Source: Natrinema sp. CBA1119 (GTDB lineage: Archaea > Halobacteriota > Halobacteria > Halobacteriales > Natrialbaceae). From it: a stretch of 64,000 nucleotides of DNA. The notes under the pieces were generated by a model that did not search any database, had not been told where the DNA came from, and worked only from the letters and a program-made list of their open reading frames with translations. A program made the translations under genes and the position numbers. This document shows, in pieces, positions 407-32,577 of this stretch. The first letter of the stretch is position 1, and the number at the start of each line of letters is the position of its first letter. The stretch covers positions 3,596,001 through 3,660,000 of the forward strand of contig NZ_PDBS01000001.1 of NCBI RefSeq assembly GCF_002572525.1, written 5' to 3'.

Positions 407-1576
407 ATGGACTTCGAGCTCAGCGATGAGCAACGACTCATCAGAAGCGAGATTCAGGACCTCTGCGACCAATTCGGCGACGAGTACTGGCGCGAAAAGG
501 ACATGCAACACGAGTTCGGGTGGGAGTTCTACGAGGAGTTCGCCGACGGCGGCTGGTGCGGCGTCACGATTCCGGAGGAGTACGGCGGACAGGGGTACGG
601 CGTTCAGGAGGCGAGCATCATCCAGCAGGAGATCGCCCGCTCCGGCGCTGCGATGGCCGGCACGTCGATCACGTCACACCACGTCTTCAGCGCTGCCCCG
701 CTGGTGGAGTACGGGTCGGACGATCACAAGGAACGGTACCTGCCGGATATCGCCGATGGAGCGGTCATGGTCTGTACGGGCGTCACGGAACCGAACGCGG
801 GGACCGATACGTCACAGATCGAGACGTTCGCGGAGCGAGACGGCGACGAATACGTCGTGAACGGCCAGAAGATTTGGACCTCGAAGGCGCAGGAGGCGGA
901 CGTCATCATGCTCCTCGCGCGGACGCAACCGCGCGAGTCGAGCGACCGGTTCGGCGGCCTCACGCTGTTTTTCACCGAGTTCAACAAGGACATGGACAGC
1001 GTCGACGTGAGCGAGATCCCGAAGGCCGGCCGCGGCGCGGCGGACTCGAACGAGGTCTGGTTCGACGACTTCCGCGTTCCGGCCGCGGATCGAATCGGCG
1101 AGGAAGGAAACGGGTTCAAATACCTCCTCTCGTTCGCGAACTCCGAGCGGATCAGCATCGCTGCCAACGCCGTCGGAACCGGACAGGCCGCACTCGAGAC
1201 GGCCGCATCCTACGCCAGGGAGCGCGAAGTCTTCGACAACTCCATCGGCACCTATCAGGCGATTCAGCATCCGCTCGCGGACTCGTGGACCAAACTGACG
1301 CAGGCGGAACTGATGATTCGGAAGGCCGCGTGGCTGTACGACAACGACAAAAATTCGGGTCCAGAGGCTAACGCCGTCAAACTCCGCGCGAGCGAGGACG
1401 CGATCGAGGCCTGCGAGCGCGCCGTTCGCGTTCACGGCGGAATGGGGTACGCGAGGGAGTACGACGTGGAGCGATACTGGCGCGAAGTCATGATCAACGT
1501 GCTCGCACCGATCTCGAACGAGATGGTCAAAAACTACATCGCACAGCACGTCCTCGATCTTCCGCGCTCTTACTGA
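407..1576 (+). CDS. acyl-CoA dehydrogenase
   Basis: FAD-dependent alpha,beta-dehydrogenation of an acyl-CoA in the cytoplasm, passing electrons to ETF. The 389-aa length is normal for the family. It starts MDFELSDEQRLIRSEIQDL, the classic ACAD N-terminus, followed by PEEYGGQGYG, the FAD/substrate loop VTEPNAGTDTSQIET and the central beta-domain block NGQKIWTSKA. The C-terminal helical domain has RVHGGMGYAREYDVERYWRE and ends with SNEMVKNYIA, where E372 sits at the catalytic-base position of the MCAD class. The ATG is supported by the TATA box at 376. Its substrate class cannot be told from sequence. It is transcribed alone; the next gene is convergent. Confidence 0.93.
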   Translation: MDFELSDEQRLIRSEIQDLCDQFGDEYWREKDMQHEFGWEFYEEFADGGWCGVTIPEEYGGQGYGVQEASIIQQEIARSGAAMAGTSITSHHVFSAAPLVEYGSDDHKERYLPDIADGAVMVCTGVTEPNAGTDTSQIETFAERDGDEYVVNGQKIWTSKAQEADVIMLLARTQPRESSDRFGGLTLFFTEFNKDMDSVDVSEIPKAGRGAADSNEVWFDDFRVPAADRIGEEGNGFKYLLSFANSERISIAANAVGTGQAALETAASYAREREVFDNSIGTYQAIQHPLADSWTKLTQAELMIRKAAWLYDNDKNSGPEANAVKLRASEDAIEACERAVRVHGGMGYAREYDVERYWREVMINVLAPISNEMVKNYIAQHVLDLPRSY

Positions 1577-2272: not shown

Positions 2273-3052
2273 TTACCGCCCCTGAAACTCCGGCTCCCGG
2301 TTCTCGAGGAACGCCGTCATCGCCTCCTGTTGATCGTACGTATCGAAACAGGCGGCGATCGTCTCGAGGCTGTGATCGATACCCGATTCGACGCCGTTCG
2401 ATCGGAGCGCCCGAAAGACCTGCGTCTGCCACTGGATGATGCGCGGACTCTTGCTCGCCAGCGTTTCGACGAGGTGGTCGACGGTCTCGTCGTACGCGTC
2501 CGGCGCGACCGCCCGGTTGACTAACCCGAGTTCCTCGGCGTCCAGCCCGGAAACCGGTTCACCCGTGTAGACGATCTCCTTTGCGGCCTGAAGACCGACC
2601 AGTCGAACGAGGAGTCCGCCCTGGATGCCGGTGACGAGCCCCGCGTCGATCTCCGGGAGTCCGAGCGCGGCGTCCTCGGTCGCGACGCGAAAGTCACACG
2701 ACATCGCGAGCTCGAGCCCGCCGCCGAGCGCGTACTCGCCACACCGACAGACGGTGACTGCGTCGAGGTTCCGGACCCCTTGCATGAGTTCGTACAGGTT
2801 CGTCAGCATCGCCCGCGCTTCGGAGACGGAGTAGTCCTTCACCTCGTCGAGCTTCAGACCGGCGGTCAGTCCGCCGACGCCGTCGTCGGCATCGGGGCCG
2901 ATAGTGAGGACCGAAACGTCGTCGGAGACGGTTTCGACCCGATCACGGAGGGTAACGATCGCGTCGGGAGAGAACAGGTTCAGATCGCCGAAGTCCAGTC
3001 GGAGGTGGGCGACGTTATTCAGGTCGGTATCGCGGTCGAGGGTTACGGACAT
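2273..3052 (-). CDS. enoyl-CoA hydratase/isomerase family protein with both catalytic Glu
   Basis: A crotonase-fold protein of 259 aa from the ATG at 3052. The open frame runs 16 codons further up, but MSVTLDRDTDLNNVAHLRLD is the natural start. The active-site block ALGGGLELAMSCDFRVA places E114 where the first catalytic glutamate of rat hydratase lies, and LGLPEIDAGLVTGIQGG places E134 at the second. It ends in the family-typical ENREPEFQGR. A true hydratase or a related crotonase is therefore plausible. The first oxyanion block is atypical (GPDADDGVGGLTAGLKL, no GxxFCAG), so the substrate may be unusual. It sits upstream of the MaoC gene on the same strand. Confidence 0.88.
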   Translation of the reverse strand: MSVTLDRDTDLNNVAHLRLDFGDLNLFSPDAIVTLRDRVETVSDDVSVLTIGPDADDGVGGLTAGLKLDEVKDYSVSEARAMLTNLYELMQGVRNLDAVTVCRCGEYALGGGLELAMSCDFRVATEDAALGLPEIDAGLVTGIQGGLLVRLVGLQAAKEIVYTGEPVSGLDAEELGLVNRAVAPDAYDETVDHLVETLASKSPRIIQWQTQVFRALRSNGVESGIDHSLETIAACFDTYDQQEAMTAFLENREPEFQGR

Positions 3053-3270
3053 GCTCACGAGTTCACGGGAAATACACGTTAACCTTTGTGCCGCGGTCAC
3101 GCGAGTCGCGGACGAGCGGACGTAGATTGCGGCGGCATCGGTCCGATCACGGCGTTATCAGCCTGTCCAGTCGACTCGAGGGGCGATAGTAGCGTGTACT
3201 GGCCCATCTTCCCGATAGCGATCGAATGGGACAAAGTAATTATTGCGACGGCTACCGTGACCTCCATTGT

Positions 3271-4089
3271 ATGTCATCCTTTGACAATATATCGGTGACG
3301 ACGGCCGAGACGAACGACAGAATCGCCCGCGTCTCGCTCGATAACGAGGCCCAGCACAACACGCTCGATCTGCGGACGATCCAGGAGTTAGACGACGCCT
3401 TCACGGCGGCCGACCGCGACGCGGAGATCGATGCGATCGTCCTCGGGACGACTGGCGATGTCTTCTGTTCGGGAGCCGACCTCGGCGATCTAACCGAGAT
3501 GGCGTTCGAGGAGGGAACGCGCTGGATGAGCCAGTACTTCGAGACGATCGACGTACTCAGGGACACGGGCAAGCCCACGGTCGCCGCCATCGAAGGGGTT
3601 TGCGCCGCCGGCGGCAACGAGCTCGCGATGGGGTGTGACCTGATCGTCGCGGGCGAATCGGCCAAGTTCGGGCAGCCCGAAGTCGGTGTCGGCTCGACCG
3701 CTGCCGGCGGCGGCGTGCAACTGCTCCCGCTGCTCGTCGGTGAGAAACGGGCGCGAGAGATGCTGCTGCTCGGGGAGATGTATCCCGCGTCGCAGATGCA
3801 GGAGTGGGGACTGGTCAACCGCGTCGTCGATGACGGGGGCGCTCGAGACGAGGCGGTCTCCCTCGCGAACGACATTGTCTCCAACAAAAGCCCGCAGGCG
3901 TACCGCGCCATCAAGACGATCATGAAGACCTGGACGAACATCGGCATGGTCAATCAGGAGATGGCTCGAGACATGACGGCCGCGGTCTGGGACTCCGAGG
4001 AGTTCCGCGACCGCGCCGAGGCGTTCGTCGACAGGGAGGAACAGACTCCGCGATCGTTCACCGGATCGCAACCCGTGGACAGGGAGTGA
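3271..4089 (+). CDS. enoyl-CoA hydratase/isomerase family protein
   Basis: A 272-aa crotonase-fold protein. The frame is open from 3226, but MSSFDNISVTTAE at 3271 is the natural start and a TATA-like gtaattatt lies at about 3235-3243. Family blocks are GDVFCSGADLGDL (first oxyanion), AAGGNELAMGCDLIVA with E117, and FGQPEVGVGSTAAGGG with E137. Both glutamates of the hydratase pair are retained. It ends with the typical FVDREEQTPRSF region. It diverges from the crotonase gene at 3052. Its reaction is probably syn-hydration of a 2-enoyl-CoA; isomerase activity cannot be excluded. Confidence 0.9.
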   Translation: MSSFDNISVTTAETNDRIARVSLDNEAQHNTLDLRTIQELDDAFTAADRDAEIDAIVLGTTGDVFCSGADLGDLTEMAFEEGTRWMSQYFETIDVLRDTGKPTVAAIEGVCAAGGNELAMGCDLIVAGESAKFGQPEVGVGSTAAGGGVQLLPLLVGEKRAREMLLLGEMYPASQMQEWGLVNRVVDDGGARDEAVSLANDIVSNKSPQAYRAIKTIMKTWTNIGMVNQEMARDMTAAVWDSEEFRDRAEAFVDREEQTPRSFTGSQPVDRE

Positions 4090-4586: not shown

Positions 4587-5381
4587 TTACTCGCCCCGGA
4601 AATCGGGCTCTCGTTTTTCGTCGAACGCGGCGATGGCCTCCGCGTGGTCGTCCGTTTCGCGACACTCGCCGAGCGCCTCGATCGCGTGCTCGAGCCCCGT
4701 CTCCATGTTGACGTCGTGGGCCTCGTTGACGAGTTGCTTCGCGTTCCCGAGCGCGACGGTGGGCCCGTCCGCTAGCTCGCGGGCCCGGTCGAAGGCGACC
4801 TCTCGAGTGCGCTCGGCGTCTCCATCGACGACCGTCGAGGCGATGCCCAGTTCCTTGGCCTCCGTCCCGGAGACGCGACGACCGGAGAAGATCAAGTCCT
4901 TCGCGACCTCTTCGCCGACGAGACGGGGAAGCATGTACGCGCCGCCGTCCCCCGGCGACAGCCCCACGTTCACGTACGATTGGCTCAGTTCGGCGTCGGC
5001 TCGGACCACTCGGATGTCACAGCCCAGCGCGAGATCCATCCCGGCACCCATCGCGTAGCCGTTGACGCCGCCGACGACGGGAAGCGGCGTGCGTCGGAGC
5101 GCCTTGAGCACACGCTGTGCTCGGTGGACGGTATCCAGCGCCTCCGGCGTCGATTCCGAGAGCCCGCCTTCGTCCCCGAGATCGACGCCGGCGCAGAACG
5201 CCTTGTCACCGGCGGCCGTGAACAGGATCGAACGGACGTCGTCGTCCGCTTCGAACGACCGAATCGCGTCGTGTAACTCCTCGAGGACGCGCGGGGTGAA
5301 CGCGTTCAGGCTCTCCGGACGTTCGATTTGCATGCGACCGACTCCTTCCATAACGGTGGCAGTAACTACGTCATCGGACAT
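4587..5381 (-). CDS. crotonase-fold protein lacking the hydratase glutamate pair
   Basis: A 264-aa protein from the ATG at 5381, where MSDDVVTATVMEGVGRMQIE is the natural start (a further 17 codons are open upstream). The fold blocks are clear: RPESLNAFTPRVLEEL, DKAFCAGVDLGDE and the C-terminal FDEKREPDFRGE. At the two hydratase glutamate positions it has D116 (GAGMDLALGCD) and Y136 (LSQSYVNVGLSPGDGG). It is thus probably not a simple hydratase; isomerases, hydrolases and thioesterases of the superfamily use other residues. Its stop codon lies one base after the SDR remnant on the opposite strand. Confidence 0.85.
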   Translation of the reverse strand: MSDDVVTATVMEGVGRMQIERPESLNAFTPRVLEELHDAIRSFEADDDVRSILFTAAGDKAFCAGVDLGDEGGLSESTPEALDTVHRAQRVLKALRRTPLPVVGGVNGYAMGAGMDLALGCDIRVVRADAELSQSYVNVGLSPGDGGAYMLPRLVGEEVAKDLIFSGRRVSGTEAKELGIASTVVDGDAERTREVAFDRARELADGPTVALGNAKQLVNEAHDVNMETGLEHAIEALGECRETDDHAEAIAAFDEKREPDFRGE

Positions 5382-5550
5382 GAGAGAGTCCACGGAACGT
5401 CGAGGAATAACGTTTTCCCTCGATCGCTGCACGACCGGGACCGTCGATCGAACTCGAGAGGCGCTCGTTCACTGTCCCGCGTCGCAGTGAGTCGTGACGC
5501 ACACCGGCGGCAGCGTAACAGATATGGTTCCGGTTGCAGAACGGTATACC

Positions 5551-8107: not shown

Positions 8108-8677
8108 CTACTCGTCGTCGCGATCGTACGTCTCGATCGTCTCGTCGTCGGGCTCCCAGCCGACGAACGCGGTCTCCGGACGCAACGAGAGCGCGTCGAT
8201 GACGACGGCAGTGCCGAGGTAGTGGCCGACCAGCGACGCCATACCCGCGATCGTCTCGTCGTCGAAGTGGGCACCGATCTCCGCGTGCGCCTCGTCGTCG
8301 ACCGACCGTCTCACAGCGAGTTTCGCGTACCTGAGCAACGCGCTGTCGGCGGTGTCGAACTCGTCGACGCGGTCGGTGCCGATCGCTCTGATCTCCTCGT
8401 GCTCGACGCCGACGTCTCGAGCGAGGCCGACGTGCTGGTGCCACTCGTACTCGTTTTCCAGTTCTCGAGCGATCGTCAGAATAACCAGTTCGACCTCCCG
8501 TGAGGTAAGTCCGGCGTGTTCCCACAGTGCGGTCCCGTGGCGCATGTACGTCTGGAGGACCGGCGGGTTGGAGCCGATCGCCTGCAGCAATTCGAGTTCG
8601 CCGAGCGCGTCTTCGCTCAGGAGATACTGATACTCCGCCGGGAGAGCCGACTGTCGCGGGAGCGGGATGCGAGCCAT
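8108..8677 (-). CDS. carboxymuconolactone decarboxylase (AhpD/CMD) family protein
   Basis: A 189-aa all-helical CMD-fold protein from the ATG at 8677 (MARIPLPRQSALP). The family core is LTSREVELVILTIARELENE followed by YEWHQHVGLARDVGV, with Glu and His at the positions used by CMD enzymes. The CxxC redox pair of AhpD is absent, so peroxidase-reductase function is unlikely. Such proteins often accompany catabolic clusters as lyases or tautomerases of unknown substrate. It is the last gene of a same-strand run MaoC - thiolase - DUF35 - CoA transferase - CMD (12299 down to 8108). Confidence 0.82.
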   Translation of the reverse strand: MARIPLPRQSALPAEYQYLLSEDALGELELLQAIGSNPPVLQTYMRHGTALWEHAGLTSREVELVILTIARELENEYEWHQHVGLARDVGVEHEEIRAIGTDRVDEFDTADSALLRYAKLAVRRSVDDEAHAEIGAHFDDETIAGMASLVGHYLGTAVVIDALSLRPETAFVGWEPDDETIETYDRDDE

Positions 8678-8831
8678 ACCTGAGAGGGGCCACAAATCGA
8701 CTTAGTTCTTCGGTCCCGAGCGGGATGGGGCCGATCGACGCCAGACGCGGTCATGGGTCACCGTCAGTCACCCCCGGAATAGCTGCGGGCCTCCGTCACC
8801 TCGTTACGGCCCCGGTTCCGGTCCCGGTCCA

Positions 8832-10037
8832 CTACTGGATGACGCCGTCCTCGCGAAGCTGGGAGAGTTCGTCCGCCGAGTAGCCGTGGCGCTCGAGGAT
8901 CGAGTCGGTGCTCTCTCCCAACTGCTGGGGTGCGACCTCGAGTTGGGTCCCGAGCTGGGCGAAGTGGACGGGTTGATCGATCACGTCCGCGTCCTCCCGG
9001 TCGTCGCGTTCCATGACCTGATGGAGTTCGCGCTGTTTCACGTGGTCGTCCTCCCAGACCGTTTTCGTATCGTAAATCGGGCCGGCGGGAACGGTTTCCG
9101 CGTGAAGGCGATCGATCCAGTACTCGCTCGGTTCCGATTCCAGAATCGGTTCGAGGATGTCGTCCAGTTCCTCCCGGTTTTCGACCCGGTCTTCCATCGT
9201 GGCGAACCGGTCGTCCTCGAGCAGCTCCGGCCGCTCGAGCGCGCGGCAGAAGCCGCGCCAGAAGTCCGGCGTCCCCGCTGCGATGATGATCGGTCCGTCG
9301 GCGCAGTCGTACTTTCCGAAGGGGACGATCGACGGGTGGTGCGTGCCGAGTCGCGGGAACGGCTCGTCGTAGCCGAACGTGTAGCCGGCGCGAGCGGTGA
9401 GCCAGGTGATGGCGGCGTCCAACATGGGGACTTCGATCCACTCGCCGTCGATGCGGCCTCGCTCTCGAGCGTACAGCGCGGCGAGAACGCTCTGGCTAGC
9501 ATACGAACCGGCGATGAGGTCGCCGCTGGGAAGCCCCGACCACAGCGGTTCCCCGCCTTCTTCGCCGGTGATGCTCATGATCCCGCTCATTCCCTGGATC
9601 AGCATGTCCCACGCCGGCAGGTCCTCGTACGGGCTGTCGCGGCCGAATCCGGAGATCGAACAGTAGATGAGCTCCGGATTCAGTTCGGACACGGTCTCGT
9701 ATCCGAGTCCGAACGACTCGGCGCGTCCCGGTTTCGTGCTCTCGATGAACACGTCGGCGTCGGCGACGAGCCGCTGAGCCGCTTCCTGCCCCGCGTCGCT
9801 CTTGAGATCGATGGCGACGCTGTACTTGTTCCGATTCAGGGTGTCGAAGTAGGCTGGTGTGGGCTGAATGTCCCGACTTCGGTCGCCGCGTCCGACCGCT
9901 TCGATCTTGATCACTTCCGCGCCGAGGTCGCCGAGGGCCATCGTCGCGAACGGGCCGGCTGCGACCTGGGTCAGATCGACAACGGTGATTCCGTCGAGGG
10001 GTAACACGTCCGTCTCAGGGGATTTCGCTGCCTCCAT
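8832..10037 (-). CDS. class III CoA transferase (CaiB/BaiF family)
   Basis: A 401-aa family III CoA transferase starting at the ATG at 10037 (MEAAKSPETDVLPLDGITVV); 28 further open codons upstream look non-coding. Blocks are VDLTQVAAGPFATMALGDLG, AEVIKIEAVGRGDRSRD, LNRNKYSVAIDLKS and LPAWDMLIQGMSGIM, with D144 at the catalytic position. The C-terminal YSADELSQLREDGVIQ is typical. It lies downstream of the thiolase/DUF35 pair (gap about 145 bases) and upstream of a CMD protein, all on one strand, so it may load or exchange the CoA of that pathway's acid. Confidence 0.92.
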   Translation of the reverse strand: MEAAKSPETDVLPLDGITVVDLTQVAAGPFATMALGDLGAEVIKIEAVGRGDRSRDIQPTPAYFDTLNRNKYSVAIDLKSDAGQEAAQRLVADADVFIESTKPGRAESFGLGYETVSELNPELIYCSISGFGRDSPYEDLPAWDMLIQGMSGIMSITGEEGGEPLWSGLPSGDLIAGSYASQSVLAALYARERGRIDGEWIEVPMLDAAITWLTARAGYTFGYDEPFPRLGTHHPSIVPFGKYDCADGPIIIAAGTPDFWRGFCRALERPELLEDDRFATMEDRVENREELDDILEPILESEPSEYWIDRLHAETVPAGPIYDTKTVWEDDHVKQRELHQVMERDDREDADVIDQPVHFAQLGTQLEVAPQQLGESTDSILERHGYSADELSQLREDGVIQ

Positions 10038-10182
10038 ACCTGTCCCTACTCTTGATCTGGGGTAAGTGTTTGGGAGCGAAACCCACTGGTCGCCGTGACG
10101 GGGCCGTGATACCGACGACACCGATCGGGATGGGTATCGACTCCGTCAGTACTGGACGGAAAGTCTGAAAAACCGACAGCGA

Positions 10183-10581
10183 TCACTCCGCGAGTTCGAA
10201 CTGGTACAGCTGCTGGTCGCCGCGTTCCTCCCAGATCAGCTCCACCGGATCGCCGACGGAGACGGCCGCCGGCTCCGCGAGGACGTTCGCCATCACCGTC
10301 ACATCAGCCCCCATCGCGACGAGCGCGACGACGTACGGTGTCTCCCCCTCGAACGCCTCCGTCGGAGCGCGGTGGACGACGGTGAACGATTCGACGGTTC
10401 CGCTCCCGTCCAGTTCGACTTCTTCGGACGCCGTGTGCCAGCAGTTCGGGCAGGCGGCCGCCGGGTAAAATCGCTCGTGACCGCAGTCGGTACATCGCTG
10501 GACGATGAACCGCCCGTCGTTGCAAGCGTCCCAGAATCGGGCCGTGTCTTCCGACGGCGTCGGGACGGGTTTGTCGGCCAT
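10183..10581 (-). CDS. DUF35 (Zn-ribbon plus OB-fold) acyl-CoA-associated protein
   Basis: A 132-aa protein with an N-terminal helix (TPSEDTARFWDACNDGRF), a zinc ribbon formed by C30xxC33 and C44xxC47 (QRCTDCGHERF, AACPNCWHT), and an OB-fold domain with the ELDGSGTVESFTVVHRAP and VGDPVELIWEE strands. DUF35 proteins bind acyl-CoA and work as obligate partners of thiolase-fold enzymes, for example in archaeal HMG-CoA formation and in steroid side-chain aldolases. The thiolase-fold gene ends one base upstream of this ATG, so the two are almost certainly co-translated and form a complex. That partnership is inference from family behaviour and adjacency. Confidence 0.9.
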   Translation of the reverse strand: MADKPVPTPSEDTARFWDACNDGRFIVQRCTDCGHERFYPAAACPNCWHTASEEVELDGSGTVESFTVVHRAPTEAFEGETPYVVALVAMGADVTVMANVLAEPAAVSVGDPVELIWEERGDQQLYQFELAE

Positions 10582-10582
10582 T

Positions 10583-11731
10583 TTACCACGCCTCCATCAG
10601 CAGCGTCGCGTTCGTAGACAGGACGCCGCCGACGCCGTGAGCGAGCGCGAGATCGGCGTCCACCTGCGTCTCCGCTGCATCCCCTCTGATCTGGCGTGCG
10701 GCCTCGAGAATGTGAAAGACGCCCGCACCGGCGTAGGAGAGTTCCCCGCCGTGCGTGTTCACCGGTAGTTCGCCGTCGATCGTGATTCCCCGCTCGCGAA
10801 CGAACGAGCCGCTTTCGCCTTTCTCGCAGAATCCGAGATCCTCGAGGAGGAGGAGCGGCGTGATCGTAAAGCAGTCGTACAACTGCGCGACGTCGACATC
10901 GTCGGGGGTGCGATCGGCCATCTCGAACGCCGTCGTCCCGCTCGCTGCCGCGGGCGTCTCCAGCAGGTCGTCGCGTCTGTGGATGTACTCCGACCCGTGT
11001 CCCTCCCCGTAGCCGGTCAGCTCGACTGGGGCTCGCGTCTCCTCGGCCGCATCGGCCGAGGACACGACCACGGCGCCGGCACAGTCGCTGATCAACGCGC
11101 ACTCGAGTTTGTGCAGCGGCGACGAAATCAGCCCCGAGGAGAGGACATCGTCGACGTCTATCGGTTCGGTGTGCTGTCCGGCCCCGCGCATCGACGCGTG
11201 TTCGCGGCAGGCGACCGCGACCGTTGCGAGCTCTTCCGCGGTCGTTCCGTACGTCGCCATGTGCTTCTGTGCGATCAGCGCGTACATCGACGGCACCAGC
11301 GGCCCGAACGGGTTCTCGAACTCGGGGTGCCCGACCTCCGTCGCGAGACTGCTGACCCCGTCGTCGCCCTTGGAGAATCCCGTTCGCCGATTATCGCCGA
11401 ACGCGACGACGACGTTTTCACACTGACCCTGTCGGACGGCGTTCGCAGCGTGACAGACCCCGACGAACGGCGTCGCACCGCCGAGTCGAAGGCTCTCGTT
11501 GTACGTGAGATTCAGTCCCAGGTAATCGGCGACGACCGTACTGTGCATCAGCTTCGGATCGACGAGTGAGTACCCGGTGACGAGTCCGTCGATATCCGCT
11601 TTCTCGAGGCCGGCGTCGTCGACCGCCTCGAGACAGGCATTCGCATAGAGGTTGATCGAATCCATATCCGGCGTCTTCCCGATCGGCGATTCCCCGATAC
11701 CGGTCACTGCGACCCGCTGTGTCGAACCCAT
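10583..11731 (-). CDS. thiolase-fold acyl-CoA lyase/aldolase (SCP2/Ltp-like), no nucleophilic Cys
   Basis: A 382-aa thiolase-superfamily protein beginning MGSTQRVAVTGIGESPIGKT. Other blocks are ACLEAVDDAGL, FGDNRRTGF, the catalytic-loop region DVAQLYDCFTITPLLLLEDLG, NTHGGELSYAGAGVFH and AHGVGGVLSTNATLLM. Where degradative thiolases have the nucleophilic Cys (about residue 84) it reads SLRLGGATPF, without Cys. The GHP loop is replaced by LSYAGAG with Tyr333, and Tyr285 lies in YDCF. This pattern matches lipid-transfer-protein thiolases that act as retro-aldolases with a DUF35 partner (the steroid Ltp2 type) better than a true thiolase. The one-base spacing to DUF35 supports a complex. The substrate is unknown. 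Confidence 0.88.
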   Translation of the reverse strand: MGSTQRVAVTGIGESPIGKTPDMDSINLYANACLEAVDDAGLEKADIDGLVTGYSLVDPKLMHSTVVADYLGLNLTYNESLRLGGATPFVGVCHAANAVRQGQCENVVVAFGDNRRTGFSKGDDGVSSLATEVGHPEFENPFGPLVPSMYALIAQKHMATYGTTAEELATVAVACREHASMRGAGQHTEPIDVDDVLSSGLISSPLHKLECALISDCAGAVVVSSADAAEETRAPVELTGYGEGHGSEYIHRRDDLLETPAAASGTTAFEMADRTPDDVDVAQLYDCFTITPLLLLEDLGFCEKGESGSFVRERGITIDGELPVNTHGGELSYAGAGVFHILEAARQIRGDAAETQVDADLALAHGVGGVLSTNATLLMEAW

Positions 11732-11852
11732 GTACTGTTACCCGCCACATGACCACATAGTTCTTGTTGAAGCGAGGGTCTCGCTCGCGAAAAACGGGCC
11801 AGAGAAGTCGTTCGGATCGACCCGGTGGTCGCGACACCGCCGATCGGCTCGG

Positions 11853-12299
11853 TTACTCGTCGTCGGCGTACTGGACCATCTTCCGATGGTCCCAGACGAC
11901 GCAGACGTCGTCGTCCTGATTGGAAACGGTCGTCCGGAGCGTGACGACGCCGCCTTTCTCCTTCTCCTCGAGGTCGGTGACTTCCTGGACCGTTCGAACG
12001 GTATCGCCCGGGAAAACGGGGGTCGGGAACCGCATGTTGTCGATCCCGTAGAGACCGACGACGGTCCCCTCCGTGTAGCCGATCTGCGTCGTCAGCCCGA
12101 GCCCGATACTGAACACGAGCGGGCCGTGGGCGATCCGAGAGCCGAAGATCGTCTCCTCAGCGTACTCCTCGCTGACGTGTATCTCGTTGTAGTCACCCGA
12201 GAGACCCGCGAAGGACGTCACGTCGGCTTCGGTGATCGTCCGGGTTCTCGATTCGAACATTTCTCCGATCTCGAACTCCTCGAAGTATTTGCCGCTCAT
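11853..12299 (-). CDS. MaoC-like enoyl-CoA hydratase
   Basis: A 148-aa hotdog hydratase. The hydratase-2 motif is canonical: FAGLSGDYNEIHVSEEYA, with D36, N38 and H41. It is followed by GSRIAHGPLVFSIGLGL and FPTPVFPGDTVRT. It begins MSGKYFEEFEIGEMFES, a standard MaoC start. It lies 121 bases upstream of the thiolase/DUF35 pair on the same strand. In steroid and branched-acid pathways a MaoC hydratase makes the tertiary beta-hydroxyacyl-CoA that the thiolase-fold/DUF35 aldolase then cleaves, so this neighbourhood fits hydration followed by retro-aldol cleavage. It diverges from the CoA transferase at 12477. Confidence 0.9.
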   Translation of the reverse strand: MSGKYFEEFEIGEMFESRTRTITEADVTSFAGLSGDYNEIHVSEEYAEETIFGSRIAHGPLVFSIGLGLTTQIGYTEGTVVGLYGIDNMRFPTPVFPGDTVRTVQEVTDLEEKEKGGVVTLRTTVSNQDDDVCVVWDHRKMVQYADDE

Positions 12300-13950: not shown

Positions 13951-15945
13951 TCAGGCGGGAGCGGCCGTTGCCGACTCCTGACGTTCCATATAATGGAACG
14001 CGACGACAACGAGGACCGCCAGAACGAATCCGCCCGCCTGGATGGTCGACGTTCCCCAGAACATGATGGCAACGAGCACGCCCACTCCGACGGTTTTGAT
14101 GCCGACGGAGACGTACCTGTTGTAGTCGATGTTGAAGTGGATGATAGTGACGATCGCGATGAACGTCGCGAGCAGGTAGATGAACGTCAGCGGTGTGTCA
14201 CTCCCCCACTGAGCGATGCTCGGGTGGTAGATAATCGTGTACGGGAGGATGAATAGCGGCGCTCCCATGATCATCGCCTTCTTCGCCACCTGGGTGAAAT
14301 CCGCTTCGGCGATACCGCTGGCGATGACGGCCGCGAGTGCGACCGGTGGCGTGATTGCCGACAGGATCGCGAAGTAGAACACGAACAGGTGCGTGTTGAA
14401 CTCCGAGATGCCGAGGTCTCCGACGGCCGGTGCGACGAACACCACGACGACGACGTACGCGGCGACGGTCGGCATCCCCAGGCCGAACATGATCGACAGG
14501 ATCATCGCCACGAGGAGTAACGGGAAGAGGAGTTCTCCCGAGAGGCCCAACATGAGGAACGACAGTTCCTGCACGATGTTTCCGCTGCCGAGCATACTGA
14601 CGAAGATCGCAATCGCACCGAGGACGACCATGATCTCCGCGCTGGCTATCGCACCTTTCTGGAGGCCAACTAGCAGGTTACGACCGTAATCCCGGAGCGC
14701 AGACCGTCTGTCACTCATGAGGATCATGTTCCAGACGAGCTGGAGTCCGATGAGGGAGATGACCGAGTGGAAGCCGGCGGTAAGCGGCCCAGTCTGTCGG
14801 ATTCCGAGGTCGTAGATGAGGATCAGCACGGACGCGAGCAGAGGCAAGTAGACGTACCACGGTTGGTCCGCGTCCTGCGTCGTCTCCAGGACCTGCTCGT
14901 CATCTGCGTCGGACTTGCTGAGATCGTACCCTTTACTGACGTAGTAGACGGTGATCGACACGGTGAGGTAAAAGATAACCGCTGGGAGCAACGCCCCCAC
15001 GACGACGTCGAGGTAGCTGATGTTCAGGAAGGAGGCCATGACGAACGCCGAGGCCCCCATAATCGGGGGAAGGACCTGGCCGCCCGACGAGGCGTTCGAT
15101 TCGATGGCCGCAGCGGTTTCGCCGTCCATCCCGTAACTCTTCATCAGCGGAATCGTCACGGCACCCGTCGTCGCGGTGTTGGCCGCGGCACTGCCCGATA
15201 TCGATCCCATGACGAAGCTCGTCACGACCGCCAGTTGCGGCACGCCGGACTGCAGGTGTTTGTTCATCCGTCTCCCGAAGTCGATAGCCAGTTGCAGCGC
15301 ACCGAACTCGATCAGGAGACTCGCATAGACGAGGAAGATGACGATCCACTGCGCGCCGACGCCGGGGAGGAATCCGAAGAGTCCGATGTCGAACACGAGG
15401 GAGGACCGCTCGAGGACACGCATTAGCGTGATGCTGCTGTGACCGAACGCCCCGGGAATGTACGATCCGAACATCGCGTACCCGACCGACAGAACGACGA
15501 TCCCGGAGACGAAGAACCCGTATCTGAGGTACGTGAAGAGGAGTATTAATATGACTAATACGAGCGCGAACATGTACTCCATCTGCGTGTAGTTGAGAAT
15601 TCGAGACAGCATCTCGGAGTACGTCGTCACGAAATAGTACGTGATGTAGAGCATCAACGCTGACGTGGCCAACTTCGCGACGAACAGCACCTTGCCGGAG
15701 ATCGCATCCAGATCGGCTTCGACCAGCTGGACCATCAAAAACACCGATAGACACAGCGAAATGATGGTATGTTGGTCGCTATTTACGAGATACGTATACC
15801 CGTATGCGATGTGATAGACAGAGAAGACGAGTGCGCTGAGGGTGAGTAACAGCCATTGTGCGTTCTCGAGCGTGAAATTCAGTGCCGGTAACTGGTCCCC
15901 TTTCTCTTCTAAACTCAGTTCCTGATCGGAGGATGTGTTCGACAT
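13951..15945 (-). CDS. TRAP transporter fused permease (DctQM-type, TAXI partner)
   Basis: A 664-aa polytopic membrane protein, the length of fused 4TM+12TM TRAP permeases. The soluble N-terminus (about 35 aa) is followed by many hydrophobic segments. Family blocks include GVGAQWIVIFLVYASLLIEF, FVMGSISGSAAANTATTGAV, ASSGGQVLPPIMGASAFVMA and LGMPTVAAYVVVVVFVAP, which are the DctM domain. It would import a carboxylate with a Na+ or H+ gradient using the TAXI binding protein encoded 25 bases upstream. It is the likely uptake system for the acids processed by the surrounding CoA enzymes. The substrate is unknown. Confidence 0.92.
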   Translation of the reverse strand: MSNTSSDQELSLEEKGDQLPALNFTLENAQWLLLTLSALVFSVYHIAYGYTYLVNSDQHTIISLCLSVFLMVQLVEADLDAISGKVLFVAKLATSALMLYITYYFVTTYSEMLSRILNYTQMEYMFALVLVILILLFTYLRYGFFVSGIVVLSVGYAMFGSYIPGAFGHSSITLMRVLERSSLVFDIGLFGFLPGVGAQWIVIFLVYASLLIEFGALQLAIDFGRRMNKHLQSGVPQLAVVTSFVMGSISGSAAANTATTGAVTIPLMKSYGMDGETAAAIESNASSGGQVLPPIMGASAFVMASFLNISYLDVVVGALLPAVIFYLTVSITVYYVSKGYDLSKSDADDEQVLETTQDADQPWYVYLPLLASVLILIYDLGIRQTGPLTAGFHSVISLIGLQLVWNMILMSDRRSALRDYGRNLLVGLQKGAIASAEIMVVLGAIAIFVSMLGSGNIVQELSFLMLGLSGELLFPLLLVAMILSIMFGLGMPTVAAYVVVVVFVAPAVGDLGISEFNTHLFVFYFAILSAITPPVALAAVIASGIAEADFTQVAKKAMIMGAPLFILPYTIIYHPSIAQWGSDTPLTFIYLLATFIAIVTIIHFNIDYNRYVSVGIKTVGVGVLVAIMFWGTSTIQAGGFVLAVLVVVAFHYMERQESATAAPA

Positions 15946-15970
15946 GATTGGAGAGTGAAAGGACTGCTAC

Positions 15971-17014
15971 TTATCCTTCGATCAGGTCTTCGTTCCAGAG
16001 ATCGTTCTCCTGATACCACTCGACGGCTCCCGGATGGACCGGCGACTGCGTGAGCCCCTCTACCGCGTACTCCTCGTTGAACAGTCCGAGGGCGTCGTGG
16101 ACGTCCTGAATCTCTTCTACGTTGCTGAACGAGATTTCACAGAACTCCTTGACGAGTTCGTTACTGAGGTCAGGGTGAACGAACCACTGGTACGGCGCCG
16201 TCGGCGATTGGACCGTGTCGATGTTCGTCTCGAACCCGAAGACCTCGTTGACCGGCACCTCGGTGACGTTGAGGTACGGGTCCTCTTCGATCGTCGAAAG
16301 CTGATCGTCGCTGAACTCGAGGACTCGCAGGCTGTCCATGCTATTTAGCTGTTCGGCCCATCCGGGAAGCGACGTCCCGCTCGCCATCACGTACGTGTAC
16401 GCGGCATCGACTCGTCCTTCCTCGAGAGCGAAGGGAATGTCCGACCAGTCTCCCTGTGTGAGTTCGATGTCTTCGTAGAGTCCGACGCTGTCGAAGGGAA
16501 TTGCACCGACGAAGCGGGACCCGGCAGCGCCGTTGTGAACGGTCTTCCCCGCCAAGTCGTCGATCGATTGGATGCTATCGTCCGCCGTCACCCAGAACGG
16601 ACGGATATCGGCGATCGCCATGACCTGTTGTGGGACGGTCGGAACGGTGTTGTCACCACCGAACTGGGCGCCCGGTCGACTCTCTTCGTTATAAGAGGCC
16701 ATCCCCATCGCGCTCGTCCCTCGAGTGATGTGATTCTCACCCTGGGCACAGAGCCTGTAGGCCTCTTCCGACCCACCAGTCGTGTTGAGGGTCAGGTTGA
16801 TATCCGTATCAGCGTTCTCGAAAAGCTGGGCCCACCCGCTTGCCTTTATGTATCCGATCGTTCCCTCGCGCGTAATCCCGAAACTCCAATCGGTGGTATC
16901 ACTTTCAACGCTACTATCACCGTTTCCCCCACCGATACAGCCCGCTAACCCTGCTAGTCCCGCTACACCTGCGGCCGTCATAAAGCGCCGTCTGTTGTAC
17001 GACATCCGTGTCAT
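15971..17014 (-). CDS. TAXI-family TRAP transporter solute-binding lipoprotein
   Basis: A 347-aa extracytoplasmic binding protein (ATG 17014; the alternative start at 17005 begins MSYNRRRFM). The N-terminus has a Tat motif (RRRFM) and a lipobox with C26 (GLAGLAGCIGG), so it is exported folded and lipid-anchored. TAXI features include EGTIGYIKASGWAQLFENAD, TGGSEEAYRLCAQGENHI and DLAGKTVHNGAAGSRF. It feeds the permease gene 25 bases downstream. The start region lies in an exact three-copy 34-bp tandem repeat, which puts extra out-of-frame start codons between the promoter and the true start; see findings. Confidence 0.92.
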   Translation of the reverse strand: MTRMSYNRRRFMTAAGVAGLAGLAGCIGGGNGDSSVESDTTDWSFGITREGTIGYIKASGWAQLFENADTDINLTLNTTGGSEEAYRLCAQGENHITRGTSAMGMASYNEESRPGAQFGGDNTVPTVPQQVMAIADIRPFWVTADDSIQSIDDLAGKTVHNGAAGSRFVGAIPFDSVGLYEDIELTQGDWSDIPFALEEGRVDAAYTYVMASGTSLPGWAEQLNSMDSLRVLEFSDDQLSTIEEDPYLNVTEVPVNEVFGFETNIDTVQSPTAPYQWFVHPDLSNELVKEFCEISFSNVEEIQDVHDALGLFNEEYAVEGLTQSPVHPGAVEWYQENDLWNEDLIEG

Positions 17015-18646: not shown

Positions 18647-19957
18647 ATGTCAGATGAGGCATCCGCTATGATCGGGGAAGACACGGTCCTGACAGACGAG
18701 GAAGAGGAGTATCTTGCCGACGCGATAACCACCCTCGAGACCGAGGTGTTCGTCGATGGGCTCGGCCACGACCACTTCCGAGCACTCGACGAGAACGAGG
18801 GCTCTCGAGAGGAGTGGCAGGAGTACGTCAGCCGCATGGGGGACGCCGGCTTCAACGCCATCTCGGTCCCCGAGGCGCACGGCGGTCCGGGCGGGACCAT
18901 CATCGAGACGGTGCTGGCCGAACAAGCGATCGGCTACTGCGGCAACATCGTCCACGCCTGCCAGACATCGCTGACGCAACACGTCGGACGGACGATGTAC
19001 GAACACGGCAACCAGCACATCACGGAGGAGTATCTCGAGCCGATGGCCGCGGGCGATCTCGTCGTGGCGCAGGCCTATACGGAACCCCGGAGCGGAACAG
19101 ATCTCGCCCATCTCGAGACCGACGCCGAGAAGGACGGCGACGAGTGGGTGATCAACGGCGAGAAGCGATTCATCGACTTCGCGCCCTACGCTGACTTCTA
19201 CTTCACGCCCGTGCGTACAAGCGGCGAAGACGGCGACCGTGAGGGCGTCTCGATTATCGTGATCGATCGTGATACCGACGGTATCGAACTCCTGCAGGAC
19301 CAGTCCGATTGGCACGGCTTCCGGGGGACTGGAGCGTCGTGGATGCAGTTCGACGACGTCCGCGTGCCCGAGGCCAACCTCGTGGGGAACGAGGGCGAGG
19401 CGTGGTCGTACATCACCGACGAACTCAACCTCGAACACCTGACCGTCGCCCGCTACTGTCTCGGAGCGAGCCAGCAAGCGCTCGAGATCGCCGCCAACTA
19501 CACCGCCAACCGAGAGGTCAACGAACGACCGGTCTCGCGGTACCAGGCCGTCAATCACAAGGTCGCCGAGATGGTGACGAAGCTCGACGGGGCGTACCTG
19601 CTTAACACCCGTGCAGCCCGGATTATGGACGATCGCGGCGTCTCCGCCGGCCGGATGGAGAGCGCGATGGCGAAGTGGCTCGGCAACGAGCTGGCTCACG
19701 AGATCGCCGACACCTGCATCCAGATCATGGGCGGAATCGGGACGACCACGTCGTATCCGGTCGAGCAGACCCAGCGCGACGTCCGCGCTGGCAGGTTCAT
19801 GGGCGGTGCGACCGAGGTCATGAAGAGCGTCGTCCAACACGACGCCTACCAGCTGCTTCTGGACGAGGAGTTCGACGCCGACCTCGTCGGCAACGAACGC
19901 GAGGGGCTCCCCTGGTTGAGCGAAGACGAGCAACCGGCACGGATAGCGGACGAGTAG
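18647..19957 (+). CDS. acyl-CoA dehydrogenase (long form)
   Basis: A 436-aa acyl-CoA dehydrogenase, about 50 residues longer than its neighbours, with extensions at both ends (acidic N-terminus MSDEASAMIGEDTVLTDEEE and a C-terminal tail after the catalytic helix). Blocks are VPEAHGGPGGTIIET, YTEPRSGTDLAHLET, NGEKRFIDFAPYAD, QIMGGIGTTTSYPVEQTQRD and FMGGATEVMKSV. E390 takes the catalytic-base position. A TATA-like box at 18614 supports the start. It is divergently paired with an IclR regulator. The GxxTxSYPVEQTQRD segment differs from the usual YDVERYWRD, so it is a distinct subfamily. Confidence 0.92.
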   Translation: MSDEASAMIGEDTVLTDEEEEYLADAITTLETEVFVDGLGHDHFRALDENEGSREEWQEYVSRMGDAGFNAISVPEAHGGPGGTIIETVLAEQAIGYCGNIVHACQTSLTQHVGRTMYEHGNQHITEEYLEPMAAGDLVVAQAYTEPRSGTDLAHLETDAEKDGDEWVINGEKRFIDFAPYADFYFTPVRTSGEDGDREGVSIIVIDRDTDGIELLQDQSDWHGFRGTGASWMQFDDVRVPEANLVGNEGEAWSYITDELNLEHLTVARYCLGASQQALEIAANYTANREVNERPVSRYQAVNHKVAEMVTKLDGAYLLNTRAARIMDDRGVSAGRMESAMAKWLGNELAHEIADTCIQIMGGIGTTTSYPVEQTQRDVRAGRFMGGATEVMKSVVQHDAYQLLLDEEFDADLVGNEREGLPWLSEDEQPARIADE

Positions 19958-22798: not shown

Positions 22799-24475
22799 AT
22801 GAAAGTCCACGACGCAGTCATTAGACTGTTCAACGAGGAGGGAGTCGATACGCTGTTCGCGCTGATGAGCGAGGACACGATGCGCACGCTCTCGACGTTA
22901 CACGACCAGTGGAGCGGAGAAATTCGCGTCGTCCACACGCGCCACGAGCAGGGCGCCGTCGGAATGGCCGACGGCTACTCGCGAGCGAGCGACGACGTCG
23001 GCGTCTGTATGGTCGGTCGAGGACCCGCCGTCGCACAGACCGGCACCTCGCTCGTCACGGCTCGGAAGAAGGGGTCGAAGTTGCTCGTCATCGTTCCGGA
23101 GATGTCCGTGTCCGACTCCTACGATATCAAGGACTTCGAACAGGAGTCCTTCCTGAAGTCGACGGTCGGTACCGTCCGTACCGCTCGAAGCCCCGAAACA
23201 CTGCTTTCGACGCTCGAGGAGGCCTTCCGGAGCCTCCGAGTCGGAGAGGGGCCGATAGCGGTCCAGGTTCCGTGGGACGTACTGGACGGCGAACTGCCCG
23301 ACTCTGACGTCGAGACCGACCGAAATCGATCGGTAGCGGCGACGGACGCCGCCACATCGAACGCTCGACTCCACCCCGACGACGACGCGATCGATGCGGC
23401 CGTCGACCTGTACCTCGATTCGGACGCGACCAAAGTCCCGATAGTCGTGGCCGGTCGCGGTGCGATTGCGGCGGACGCGAAGGACGCGATCGAGTCGTTC
23501 GCCGAGCGGACGAACGCCGCGCTCGCCACCACCCTGCAGGCTCGAGGCTACTTCGACGATCATCCGTTCTCGCTCGGGTTCGTCGGCGATTTCGGGAGCA
23601 ATATCGCAAACGAACACCTGCACGAGAGCGACTTCGTGCTAGCGGTCGGCTGTAGCCTGAACCCGTATACGACGGACTCCGGCCACCTCGTCGAGGACGA
23701 GACCAAAGTCGTCCACGTCGATACGGACCCGAGCGCGATCGGGCGGTACGAGCCCGTCGATCTCGGCGTCCGAGGGGACGCCCGGCTGACGGTCGACGCG
23801 CTGACCGAGCGGCTGGAGGCACACGGAATCGACCGAAGCGGCGAGTTCTGGACCGATCGGTTCCGGAACCGGATCGCGGACACGCCGTCGCTAGACGAGG
23901 ACGAGTTCCCCGAACAGGAGGGACGAATCGATCCGCGAGAGTTGGTCCGCGGTCTCGATTCCACCTTGCCCGAAAACCGCGTGGTCGTCAGCGACGGTGG
24001 ACACTTTTCGCGATGGGTCCTCGACGGGGTTTCGACGCCGGAGCCAGCCGATTTCCACTGGACGCTCGACTTCGCGGCGATCGGGCAGGGACTTTCCCAC
24101 GGGATCGGCGCGGCGTTGAACTCGGGTGACCGCACTCCCGTCACGTTCTGTGGCGACGCGGGATTCATGATGGCGCTTCAGGAGGTTGACACCGCCGTCC
24201 GCCACGAGATCCCTGTGACCATCGTCGTCATGAGTGACAGCGCCCTCGGAACGGAGTATCATAGTTTACAAACCGCCAACAAGTACGCCGACGTCGCTCT
24301 CTTGGAGGCACCCGACATCGCGGACGTCGCACAGTCGCTCGGCGCGGACGGCTACACCGTTCGCTCGAGCGACGATCTGGACGCTATCAGCGACGTTCTC
24401 GACCACCGACCGGACGGGCCGGTCGTCGTCGACTGCAAGACGAACAGCGCCGTCCGCCATCGAAGTAAGATGTAG
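22799..24475 (+). CDS. thiamine-diphosphate-dependent lyase/decarboxylase (acetolactate-synthase-like)
   Basis: A 558-aa protein with the three-domain ThDP layout. The N-terminal Pyr domain has VVHTRHEQGAVGMADGYSRA with catalytic Glu50. The central domain has VAGRGAIAADAKDAI, and VHVDTDPSAIGRYEPVDLGV lies near the linker. The C-terminal PP domain has GQGLSHGIGAAL and GDAGFMMALQEVDTAVRHEI. The usual GDG...NN metal motif reads GDA...SD (S479, D480), so Asp may replace the metal-binding Asn. An unusual Shine-Dalgarno gaggaga precedes ATG 22799. Position between a CoA transferase and an SDR suggests 2-hydroxyacyl-CoA lyase, oxalyl-CoA-type or 2-oxoacid decarboxylase activity rather than acetolactate synthesis; this is inference. 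Confidence 0.9.
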   Translation: MKVHDAVIRLFNEEGVDTLFALMSEDTMRTLSTLHDQWSGEIRVVHTRHEQGAVGMADGYSRASDDVGVCMVGRGPAVAQTGTSLVTARKKGSKLLVIVPEMSVSDSYDIKDFEQESFLKSTVGTVRTARSPETLLSTLEEAFRSLRVGEGPIAVQVPWDVLDGELPDSDVETDRNRSVAATDAATSNARLHPDDDAIDAAVDLYLDSDATKVPIVVAGRGAIAADAKDAIESFAERTNAALATTLQARGYFDDHPFSLGFVGDFGSNIANEHLHESDFVLAVGCSLNPYTTDSGHLVEDETKVVHVDTDPSAIGRYEPVDLGVRGDARLTVDALTERLEAHGIDRSGEFWTDRFRNRIADTPSLDEDEFPEQEGRIDPRELVRGLDSTLPENRVVVSDGGHFSRWVLDGVSTPEPADFHWTLDFAAIGQGLSHGIGAALNSGDRTPVTFCGDAGFMMALQEVDTAVRHEIPVTIVVMSDSALGTEYHSLQTANKYADVALLEAPDIADVAQSLGADGYTVRSSDDLDAISDVLDHRPDGPVVVDCKTNSAVRHRSKM

Positions 24476-30917: not shown

Positions 30918-31925
30918 TTACGCGACCGTCTCGCCGACGTTGTCGATCGTCTCGCGTATCTCTTCGACGGTGGCAGTGGTCGGCGGAAGCAGCGCGAGCG
31001 TGTCGGCGATCCCCTCGTACCGCTCGAAGAGGTGCTCGACGGCGTCCGGACTGCCGGCGATCGCGATCTCGTCGAGGAGGTCGTCGCTGACGGCCGCTCG
31101 AGCCGCGTCCTTCTCCCCGGCCTCCCACTCGTCCTGGATCCGGTCGGCGACGTCCCGGAACCCGTGATCGGCCACCGCATCGTAATGGAAATCGCCCATC
31201 GCGCCGACGTAGAACGCGATCATCTCCCGGCATCTGTCTCGAGCCCGCTCGCCGTCTTCGAGGACGCAAGTCGTCACCCACGGGATCGTCGCGACCGCTT
31301 CGGGATCGCGATCTTGCTTTCGAGCGCCGCGATCGACGTGTTCACGCTTCGCCGGGAGCGCCGACACCGGAATGCGGTTCGGCATCCATCCGTCGCCGAA
31401 CCCGCCCGTCAGTTCGATGTTCGTCTCGCCCTGCGCGGCGACGTAAATCGGAACGTCCGAGCGATGCGGTTCGAATCGGAGACGGAAGTGACGGAGGTCG
31501 AACAGCCGGCCGTCGTAGGTCACTTCGTTCCCAGAGAGGACGCGTCGGACGATCTCGATCGTTTCGCGCTGGCGGCGCAACGCCGGCTGAAAGTCCACGC
31601 CGTGCCAGTTCTCGATGACCTTCGGCCCCGACAGGCCCAGCCCGAGTACCGCCCGTCCGTCCGTGAGTTCGTCCAGCGTCGCCGCTCCCTGCGCGATCAG
31701 CGCGGGCGACCTCGAGTAGACGGGGATGATTCCCGTTCCGAGCCCGATCGTTTCCGTACGGGCCGCGAGGTAGCCGAGACGGGTGAACGCTTCCCGACCC
31801 CACGTTTCGGGGACCATCACGAGGTCGTATCCGGCGTCCTCCGCCGCGATCGCGAGGTCACACTGCTCGACTGTGGTGACGTCGCCGGTGGCTGGCAACG
31901 GTAGCGCGAGGTCGTACGATGGCAT
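30918..31925 (-). CDS. LLM-class (luciferase-like, probably F420-dependent) oxidoreductase
   Basis: A 335-aa TIM-barrel flavin/F420 enzyme from the ATG at 31925 (MPSYDLALPLPATGDVTTVE); the open frame continues 44 codons up but without family sequence. Blocks are AIAAEDAGYDLVMVPETWGR, TETIGLGTGIIPVYSRSP, AQGAATLDELTDGRAVLGLG and the substrate-loop region VPIYVAAQGETNIELTGGFG. Archaeal members usually use coenzyme F420 (Mer-like or F420-dependent dehydrogenases). It is divergent from the CMD-like gene at 32020 with a 94-base gap, so the two probably share regulation. The substrate is unknown. Confidence 0.9.
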   Translation of the reverse strand: MPSYDLALPLPATGDVTTVEQCDLAIAAEDAGYDLVMVPETWGREAFTRLGYLAARTETIGLGTGIIPVYSRSPALIAQGAATLDELTDGRAVLGLGLSGPKVIENWHGVDFQPALRRQRETIEIVRRVLSGNEVTYDGRLFDLRHFRLRFEPHRSDVPIYVAAQGETNIELTGGFGDGWMPNRIPVSALPAKREHVDRGARKQDRDPEAVATIPWVTTCVLEDGERARDRCREMIAFYVGAMGDFHYDAVADHGFRDVADRIQDEWEAGEKDAARAAVSDDLLDEIAIAGSPDAVEHLFERYEGIADTLALLPPTTATVEEIRETIDNVGETVA

Positions 31926-32019
31926 ACTGTAACAAACGAGAAGAGACCGTGTTAGCTGTTTCCCACCCGACGCGAGCGCCGGACCATTCATGTGGTCACC
32001 GCTCGCTCTAGTCGGTACG

Positions 32020-32577
32020 ATGTCGAACGAAGGAACGTCCAGGGTGCCGTACATCACCGCAAAAGAGCAGCTATCGGAGGACTGGCACGACCACTACGAT
32101 CGGATCGCGGCCAGCCGGGGCCACGTTCGCGGTCCATTCAGCGTCCTCATGAACAGCCCGGCGGTCGCGACTAGAATCGCAGATGTCGGAACGTACGTGC
32201 GCTTCGAGGGTACGCTCCCGGGTCCGGTGCGAGAACTCGCGATCATCACGACGGCCCGGGAACTCGACTGCGCCTACGAGTGGGCGATACACGAGCCGCT
32301 GGCTCGAGAGGAGGGGGTCGCTGACGACACGATCGATATCGTCGCCGCTCGAGAGCCGACGGATCCCCTTTCGGCGACCGACGCGCTCGTCGTCCGCTAC
32401 GGTCGCGCGTTGTTCCGCGAAAACGAGATCCCGGAGTCGCTCTTTCGGTCGGCGAGAGATCGCTTCGGCGTCGAAGGAGTCACTGAACTGACGGTGACGT
32501 TCGGCTACTACAGTATGCTGGCCTGCGTCCTGAACGCCTTCGCGGTTGACCCGGGAGAATCGCTCGAGCAGTGGTGA
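32020..32577 (+). CDS. carboxymuconolactone decarboxylase family protein
   Basis: A 185-aa CMD-fold protein from ATG 32020 (MSNEGTSRVPYITAKEQLSE); an in-frame ATG at 31990 is less likely. The family core is LPGPVRELAIITTARELDCA then YEWAIHEPLAREEGV, followed by DALVVRYGRALFRENEI. It lacks a CxxC pair, so it is not an AhpD-type peroxidase. It is a second member of the family after the one at 8108, which suggests related chemistry in the two units. It is divergent from the LLM oxidoreductase gene. Confidence 0.85.
   Translation: MSNEGTSRVPYITAKEQLSEDWHDHYDRIAASRGHVRGPFSVLMNSPAVATRIADVGTYVRFEGTLPGPVRELAIITTARELDCAYEWAIHEPLAREEGVADDTIDIVAAREPTDPLSATDALVVRYGRALFRENEIPESLFRSARDRFGVEGVTELTVTFGYYSMLACVLNAFAVDPGESLEQW

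Follow-up and report, generated by a model that had tools for sequence, protein, structure and literature searches.

A nucleophile-less thiolase-fold protein and its DUF35 neighbor in Natrinema sp. CBA1119: a probable archaeal aldolase of the Sal/Ltp2 kind

The thiolase fold can become an aldolase, as described for bacterial steroid degradation with CtSal and TcLtp2, for both of which aldolase activity has been shown experimentally (PMC12329534). The CtSal variants Y302F, C304A, and C304S are inactive, indicating that Tyr302 and Cys304 are both needed, and Gln161, Gln347, and Gln352 are proposed as helper residues; the substrate of this dyad is a secondary alcohol, and the same authors tie the catalytic pair of Ltp2 to more crowded substrates (PMC12329534). 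In ibuprofen degradation, ipfDE has been linked to propionyl-CoA release (PMC9195938). With respect to the architecture of such systems, split MaoC and DUF35 domains are reported for Comamonas testosteroni TA441, so separate proteins are compatible with function (PMC12502768).

We analyzed a 64,000-nt stretch of Natrinema sp. CBA1119 DNA, here called the window (GCF_002572525.1, NZ_PDBS01000001.1, positions 3,596,001-3,660,000; the host genome assembly comprises 5.06 Mb in 9 contigs). The three genes of the original prediction, encoding a MaoC hydratase, a nucleophile-less thiolase-fold protein, and a DUF35 protein, were recovered as minus-strand open reading frames with Pfam support for each. 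The features to which we refer are as follows, the loci counted being those of the four orthologues of the thiolase-like gene, that of the window included.

10583-11731, minus strand: thiolase-fold protein, nucleophile-less, SCP2-thiolase-like, 382 aa (ORF and PF22691)
10183-10581, minus strand: DUF35 protein (zinc ribbon and OB fold, ChsH2 C-terminal type), 132 aa, stand-alone (PF01796 and PF12172)
11853-12299, minus strand: MaoC hydratase, 148 aa, accessory (PF01575)
8832-10121, minus strand: CaiB/BaiF CoA-transferase, next gene after DUF35, constant core (PF02515)
8108-8695, minus strand: carboxymuconolactone-decarboxylase (CMD)-family protein (PF02627), in 3/4 loci
4587-5432, minus strand: PaaG-like protein of the crotonase fold, lacking the usual Glu pair, in 4/4 loci
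18647-19957, plus strand: acyl-CoA dehydrogenase, in 4/4 loci
407-1576, plus strand: acyl-CoA dehydrogenase, in 4/4 loci

The gene order on the minus strand is MaoC, thiolase-like, DUF35, CaiB, and CMD family, with a gap of 121 bases between the first two and, as had been predicted, a single base (10582) between the thiolase-like stop and the DUF35 start. By sequence, the MaoC protein carries an Asp36/His41 pair inside the family motif SGDYNEIH, and the DUF35 protein carries four zinc-ribbon cysteines (C30, C33, C44, and C47), its best matches in a sequence search being the partners of Ltp2 and Sal. Elsewhere in the window, a TAXI-type TRAP transporter with fused permease and binding protein (13951-17014) lies near the orthologous gene in three of the four loci, and an acetolactate-synthase-family TPP enzyme (22799-24475, under every NCBIfam cut-off) adjoins a CaiB gene and is present in both Natrinema loci. 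Two luciferase-like oxidoreductases of the F420 type (30918-32057 and 37748-38713) have counterparts, 83% and 86% identical, only in the vicinity of the orthologue in Halobacteriales archaeon YIM A00010.

Two maximum-likelihood trees were built on different row sets, with 37 of 137 rows removed as near duplicates from the first and 39 of 139 from the second, the distant rows L130 and L132 being among those removed. In these trees a branch with SH-aLRT support of 100 separates 92 nucleophile-less rows, including those of CtSal and TcLtp2, from eight rows of Cys-type and TSS/TSA-type thiolases. The window protein and its three orthologues (89-91% identity) form a clade of four with a support of 100. 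Its branch is long, lacks a firm sister, and lies outside the Sal and Ltp2 branches, although the trees contained one Sal row, which also has a long branch; about 2 changes per site separate the clade from the nearest bacterial rows. PDB searches with phmmer and Foldseek ranked 4u4e and CtSal first. The AlphaFold2 model of the thiolase-like protein has a mean pLDDT of 93.1, and VIA-align scores put TbSLP and a Cys thiolase level with the aldolases or slightly ahead, so that the aldolases are not separated by this measure. On sequence grounds, membership in the clade that holds the aldolases CtSal and TcLtp2, rather than among the Cys thiolases, is strongly supported; the original prediction is borne out to that extent, in the absent nucleophile and in the placement within a clade that includes the DUF35-dependent aldolases. 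Four loci (L069, L071, L089, and L101) derive from metagenome bins whose titles name Bordetella parapertussis, Klebsiella pneumoniae, or Sphingomonas paucimobilis; the Klebsiella-titled L071 clusters with Binatota rows in the tree, and such titles therefore look unreliable.

The motif SLRLGGATPF occupies residues 80-89 of the thiolase-like protein, and in a 137-row alignment its Gly85 aligns with CtSal Gly89 and with the nucleophilic Cys of the Pyrococcus thiolase 7yvy, in agreement with the earlier claim that the thiolase Cys has been replaced; the column that was checked for a nucleophilic Cys thus holds none in this protein. Gly occupies the same column in 125/125 nucleophile-less relatives (a count that excludes five reference rows and seven own-genome thiolase rows), five HDCF thiolases from the same genome retain Cys there, and purifying selection acts on the gene, with a dN/dS of 0.08-0.09 versus all three orthologues. 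Together, these observations indicate that the missing nucleophile goes beyond chance. That the protein might still be a thiolase using another cysteine, such as Cys211, is barely credible: Cys211 is constant in 62/62 aligned relatives (the structure alignment comprises 61 of the 80 relatives' loci plus the window protein), but it lies outside the nucleophile column, and CtSal has Ile and 7yvy Ala in its place.

Tyr285-Asp286-Cys287-Phe288 aligns with Tyr302-Asp-Cys304-Tyr of CtSal. Tyr285, in the catalytic-base column of the YDx[FY] motif, is invariant across the 125 nucleophile-less rows, of which 63 have Cys, 58 have Ser, and 4 have Ala at position 287, and both Tyr285 and Cys287 are retained in all four haloarchaeal orthologues. 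Since Ser or Ala stands at position 287 in 62/125 rows and C304S inactivates CtSal, the Tyr-Cys dyad is not a feature of the family as a whole. The original prediction had assigned Tyr285 and Tyr333 to the active site; both are located where it placed them and the first fits the role of base, but the second aligns with CtSal Phe350, and the column of Ltp2 Tyr344 is occupied by Gly335. The likely second catalytic residue is instead Cys287 of the YDCF motif, which the prediction had overlooked, as in CtSal. We accordingly give little credence to an Ltp2-type aldolase in which Tyr285 and Tyr333 are catalytic and the substrates are tertiary 3-hydroxyacyl-CoAs. Tyr333 stands two residues before the Tyr344 column in a remodeled loop and could reach the pocket; however, a Tyr is found in its column in 48/125 relatives, mostly ones that have the loop His, and Cys287 is kept.

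The GHP loop is replaced by LSYAGAG (residues 331-337), as predicted, in a shortened form from which the loop His is absent. The Gly335 column is His in 113/125 nucleophile-less rows, and Gly335 and Glu330 are found in 4/125 rows each, exclusively the four haloarchaeal orthologues, which have a common four-residue deletion in the loop; the distant rows L130 and L132 have their own, separately shortened loops. CtSal Gln161, Gln347, and Gln352 correspond to Pro147, Glu330, and Gly335, a mismatch in the proposed helpers that counts against the Sal-like reading, and Gly369 aligns with CtSal Gly391. We tentatively consider that these archaea may possess an aldolase family whose active site is distinct, in which the loop is cut by four residues and Glu330 activates Cys287 as the acid. 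This natural variant poses the question of where the proton comes from when there is no loop His. We also considered whether loss of the loop His is confined to proteins with Cys287; the counts point in this direction, but a tree-aware pair test, with too few pairs (4 on starred branches), was not significant.

At an E value of 1e-100, the thiolase-like protein is found in 1/392 sampled genomes of the phylum (that of the window itself), in 3/29 genomes of the genus, and in 3/125 of the family, with the fourth orthologue in YIM A00010. At 1e-60, matches occur in 32/292 genomes of the class, and among 29 class loci fetched (L027-L055), DUF35 is within reach in 29/29 and MaoC in 15/29. Of 80 genome loci, 72 have a DUF35 gene and 28 a MaoC gene within 1.5 kb. 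In the plasmid collection 532 records match, and those of Natrinema caseinilyticum and N. gelatinilyticum are the nearest. In the window's own genus, two genomes carry the gene at identical plasmid coordinates.

When 30 window genes were compared with the 60 kb around each of the three orthologous loci, the thiolase-like, DUF35, and CaiB (8832-10121) genes, the crotonase gene at 4587-5432, and the two acyl-CoA dehydrogenase genes were present in 4/4 loci (window counted), with DUF35 adjoining the thiolase-like gene each time. A MaoC orthologue was present in only 2/4, and a whole-genome search for MaoC gave best identities of 40% in N. gelatinilyticum and 45% in YIM A00010, with no close relative. 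A fixed trio of MaoC, thiolase-like, and DUF35 genes, which the original prediction proposed to look for in other archaea, is therefore not what we observe; it is the thiolase-like, DUF35, and CaiB genes that stay together, with a variable hydratase. Crotonases usually carry a Glu pair. The crotonase at 4587-5432, which resembles 3hrx, lacks it in alignment and so, despite its presence in 4/4 loci, is not an obvious substitute hydratase; those at 2273-3100 and 3226-4089 retain the pair.

Ten thiolase-family genes were found in the window's own genome, and for 9/10, Cys-bearing ones included, a DUF35 match lies no more than about 1.3 kb away. The weight that had been placed on DUF35 pairing as evidence for an aldolase was thus overstated, the pairing not being diagnostic, and the aldolase reading stands on residues and tree. 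About 10 kb before the window start, a second nucleophile-less thiolase-like gene (C1:3584920-3586427; L001, L019) with the motif YDSF also has a DUF35 partner, so the acid-degradation island probably reaches beyond the window. Two further SCP2-thiolase-like genes (C1:74549-75697, L025; C8:219214-220305, L026) have TSS or TSA in place of ACA, an HDMF or HDAF motif, and an intact GHP loop, and represent another class without the usual Cys.

Three Cys-type thiolases (C1:3432197-3434745, C1:3548454-3551017, and C1:3490202-3492725) adjoin archaeal-type HMG-CoA-synthase-like ORFs, all below the TIGR00748 cut-off, and in two cases the same long frame also contains a DUF35 match; the single PF01154 HMG-CoA synthase match lies at C1:3765471, about 158 kb from the locus. 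These observations bear on the notion that the protein is a noncatalytic CoA-binding or scaffold protein, or the partner of an HMG-CoA synthase, which we hold to be very unlikely. The arrangement has a precedent in a methanogen, where DUF35 bridges thiolase and HMG-CoA synthase (PMC12329534; structures 6esq and 6et9). In the present genome, however, the HMG-CoA-synthase-like genes sit beside the three Cys thiolases, and searches with TIGR00748 and PF01154 matched none at this locus, which favors the original prediction; furthermore, the low dN/dS and the retention of Tyr285 and Cys287 in all orthologues argue for a catalytic protein.

Based on homology, we propose that the thiolase-fold and DUF35 proteins probably form an aldolase of the Sal/Ltp2 kind that cleaves a 3-hydroxyacyl-CoA. 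The enzyme would break the C2-C3 bond to give a short acyl-CoA together with either an aldehyde or a ketone, using neither free CoA nor a covalent acyl-enzyme. Tyr285 would act as the base that removes the proton from the 3-hydroxyl, Cys287 as the acid that protonates the departing CoA enolate, and the backbone NH groups of Gly85 and Gly369 would contact the hydroxyl and the thioester oxygen, with DUF35 binding the thiolase-fold protein and shaping the pocket. By the same analogy, the CoA ester would come from the CaiB transferase and the enoyl-CoA from an acyl-CoA dehydrogenase, while the 3-hydroxyacyl-CoA would be formed by a hydratase, this being MaoC here and another hydratase where MaoC is missing. 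Aldehyde-forming cleavage of a secondary alcohol appears at least as likely as a tertiary substrate, which is not favored given that CtSal acts on a secondary alcohol and that the Ltp2 pair is linked to more crowded substrates.

Two other reactions have to be weighed against such cleavage. The first, which we consider unlikely, is that of a TbSLP-like enzyme with decarboxylase or condensing activity, generating a CoA enolate from a malonyl-CoA-like substrate that is released or added to an acceptor. TbSLP structures are among the closest to the window protein, the YDCF motif is common to both, and TbSLP slowly decarboxylates malonyl-CoA; yet its rate is very low, and CtSal, with the same dyad, is described as not decarboxylating malonyl-CoA (PMC12329534). 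The neighboring acyl-CoA dehydrogenase, hydratase, and CoA-transferase genes are, moreover, those of a degradative route. The second is the forward aldol reaction in the cell, in which an acyl-CoA enolate and an aldehyde or ketone would give a 3-hydroxyacyl-CoA. Aldol reactions are reversible in principle and nothing in the sequence fixes the direction, but the surrounding uptake and acyl-CoA dehydrogenase genes point to degradation, making synthesis distinctly unlikely; CtSal and TcLtp2 are likewise degradative (PMC12329534).

Attempts to name a substrate from context did not succeed, the clustered neighbors of related loci being generic: the commonest are CaiB, acyl-CoA dehydrogenase, crotonase, MaoC, TctC, ADP-forming CoA ligase, and AMP ligase, and NCBIfam matches of the window's neighbors are nearly all under the cut-off. 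For steroid degradation, no KshA_C (PF19298) match was obtained in the genome, a result of little weight because 14/14 control genomes were likewise under the cut-off. If aldol cleavage does take place, Natrinema-type archaea might shorten branched, alicyclic, or aromatic acids in this way instead of by thiolysis, with a stand-alone DUF35 protein and exchangeable hydratases.

We found no report of an archaeal member of the Sal/Ltp2 kind in the open-access literature, most subscription papers being outside this scope. Many nucleophile-less relatives carry the annotation thiolase, acetyl-CoA acetyltransferase, or lipid-transfer protein, which suggests that nucleophile-less aldolase chemistry may be common and misannotated, archaea included. 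With three nucleophile-less YDxF genes in one genome, the locus offers a testable haloarchaeal case.

Compared with known systems, the window protein lacks the hallmarks of SCP2-type thiolases, with Gly85 for the nucleophilic Cys and Gly335 for the loop His. TbSLP from Trypanosoma brucei (PDB 5ab4-5ab7) has the same YDCF motif and the same fold (Z 53-54), but is about 25-27% identical and has weak malonyl-CoA decarboxylation as its shown activity (PMC12329534). The closest solved chain by phmmer and Foldseek, 4u4e, a putative thiolase of Sphaerobacter thermophilus (41.3% identity), is similar in having GGSS at the nucleophile and different in having YDSF and a loop His. Putative IpfD of the ibuprofen plasmid pIBU218 (name inferred from gene order; 33.8% identity) is nucleophile-less and adjoins a DUF35 gene, but combines YDAF with an Ltp2-like loop Tyr; near the ibuprofen genes, a second cluster of lipid-transfer-protein, DUF35, crotonase, and CaiB genes (L139:939-4557) has the Ltp2 motif YDHF and a loop Tyr. 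TcLtp2, the steroid C3 side-chain aldolase that works with the DUF35 of ChsH2 (PDB 6ok1; 33.7% identity), shares the absent nucleophile, the catalytic-base Tyr, and the DUF35 partner, but has YDHF and Tyr344, its second catalytic Tyr, where YDCF and Gly335 are found here. CtSal with CtShy DUF35, the bile-acid C5 side-chain aldolase of Comamonas testosteroni (PDB 9myr; PMC12329534; 36.8% identity), shares the Gly at the nucleophile, the Tyr-Asp-Cys motif with its dyad, the Gly391 equivalent, and the DUF35 partner. It differs in having Gln347/Gln352 for Glu330/Gly335, a loop four residues longer, and a C3H1 rather than a C4 zinc site (PMC12329534), whereas in the haloarchaeal locus DUF35 is stand-alone and MaoC is separate. 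Ltp2 and Sal already define the kind; judged by its residues, the haloarchaeal clade is new by its loop deletion and Glu330.
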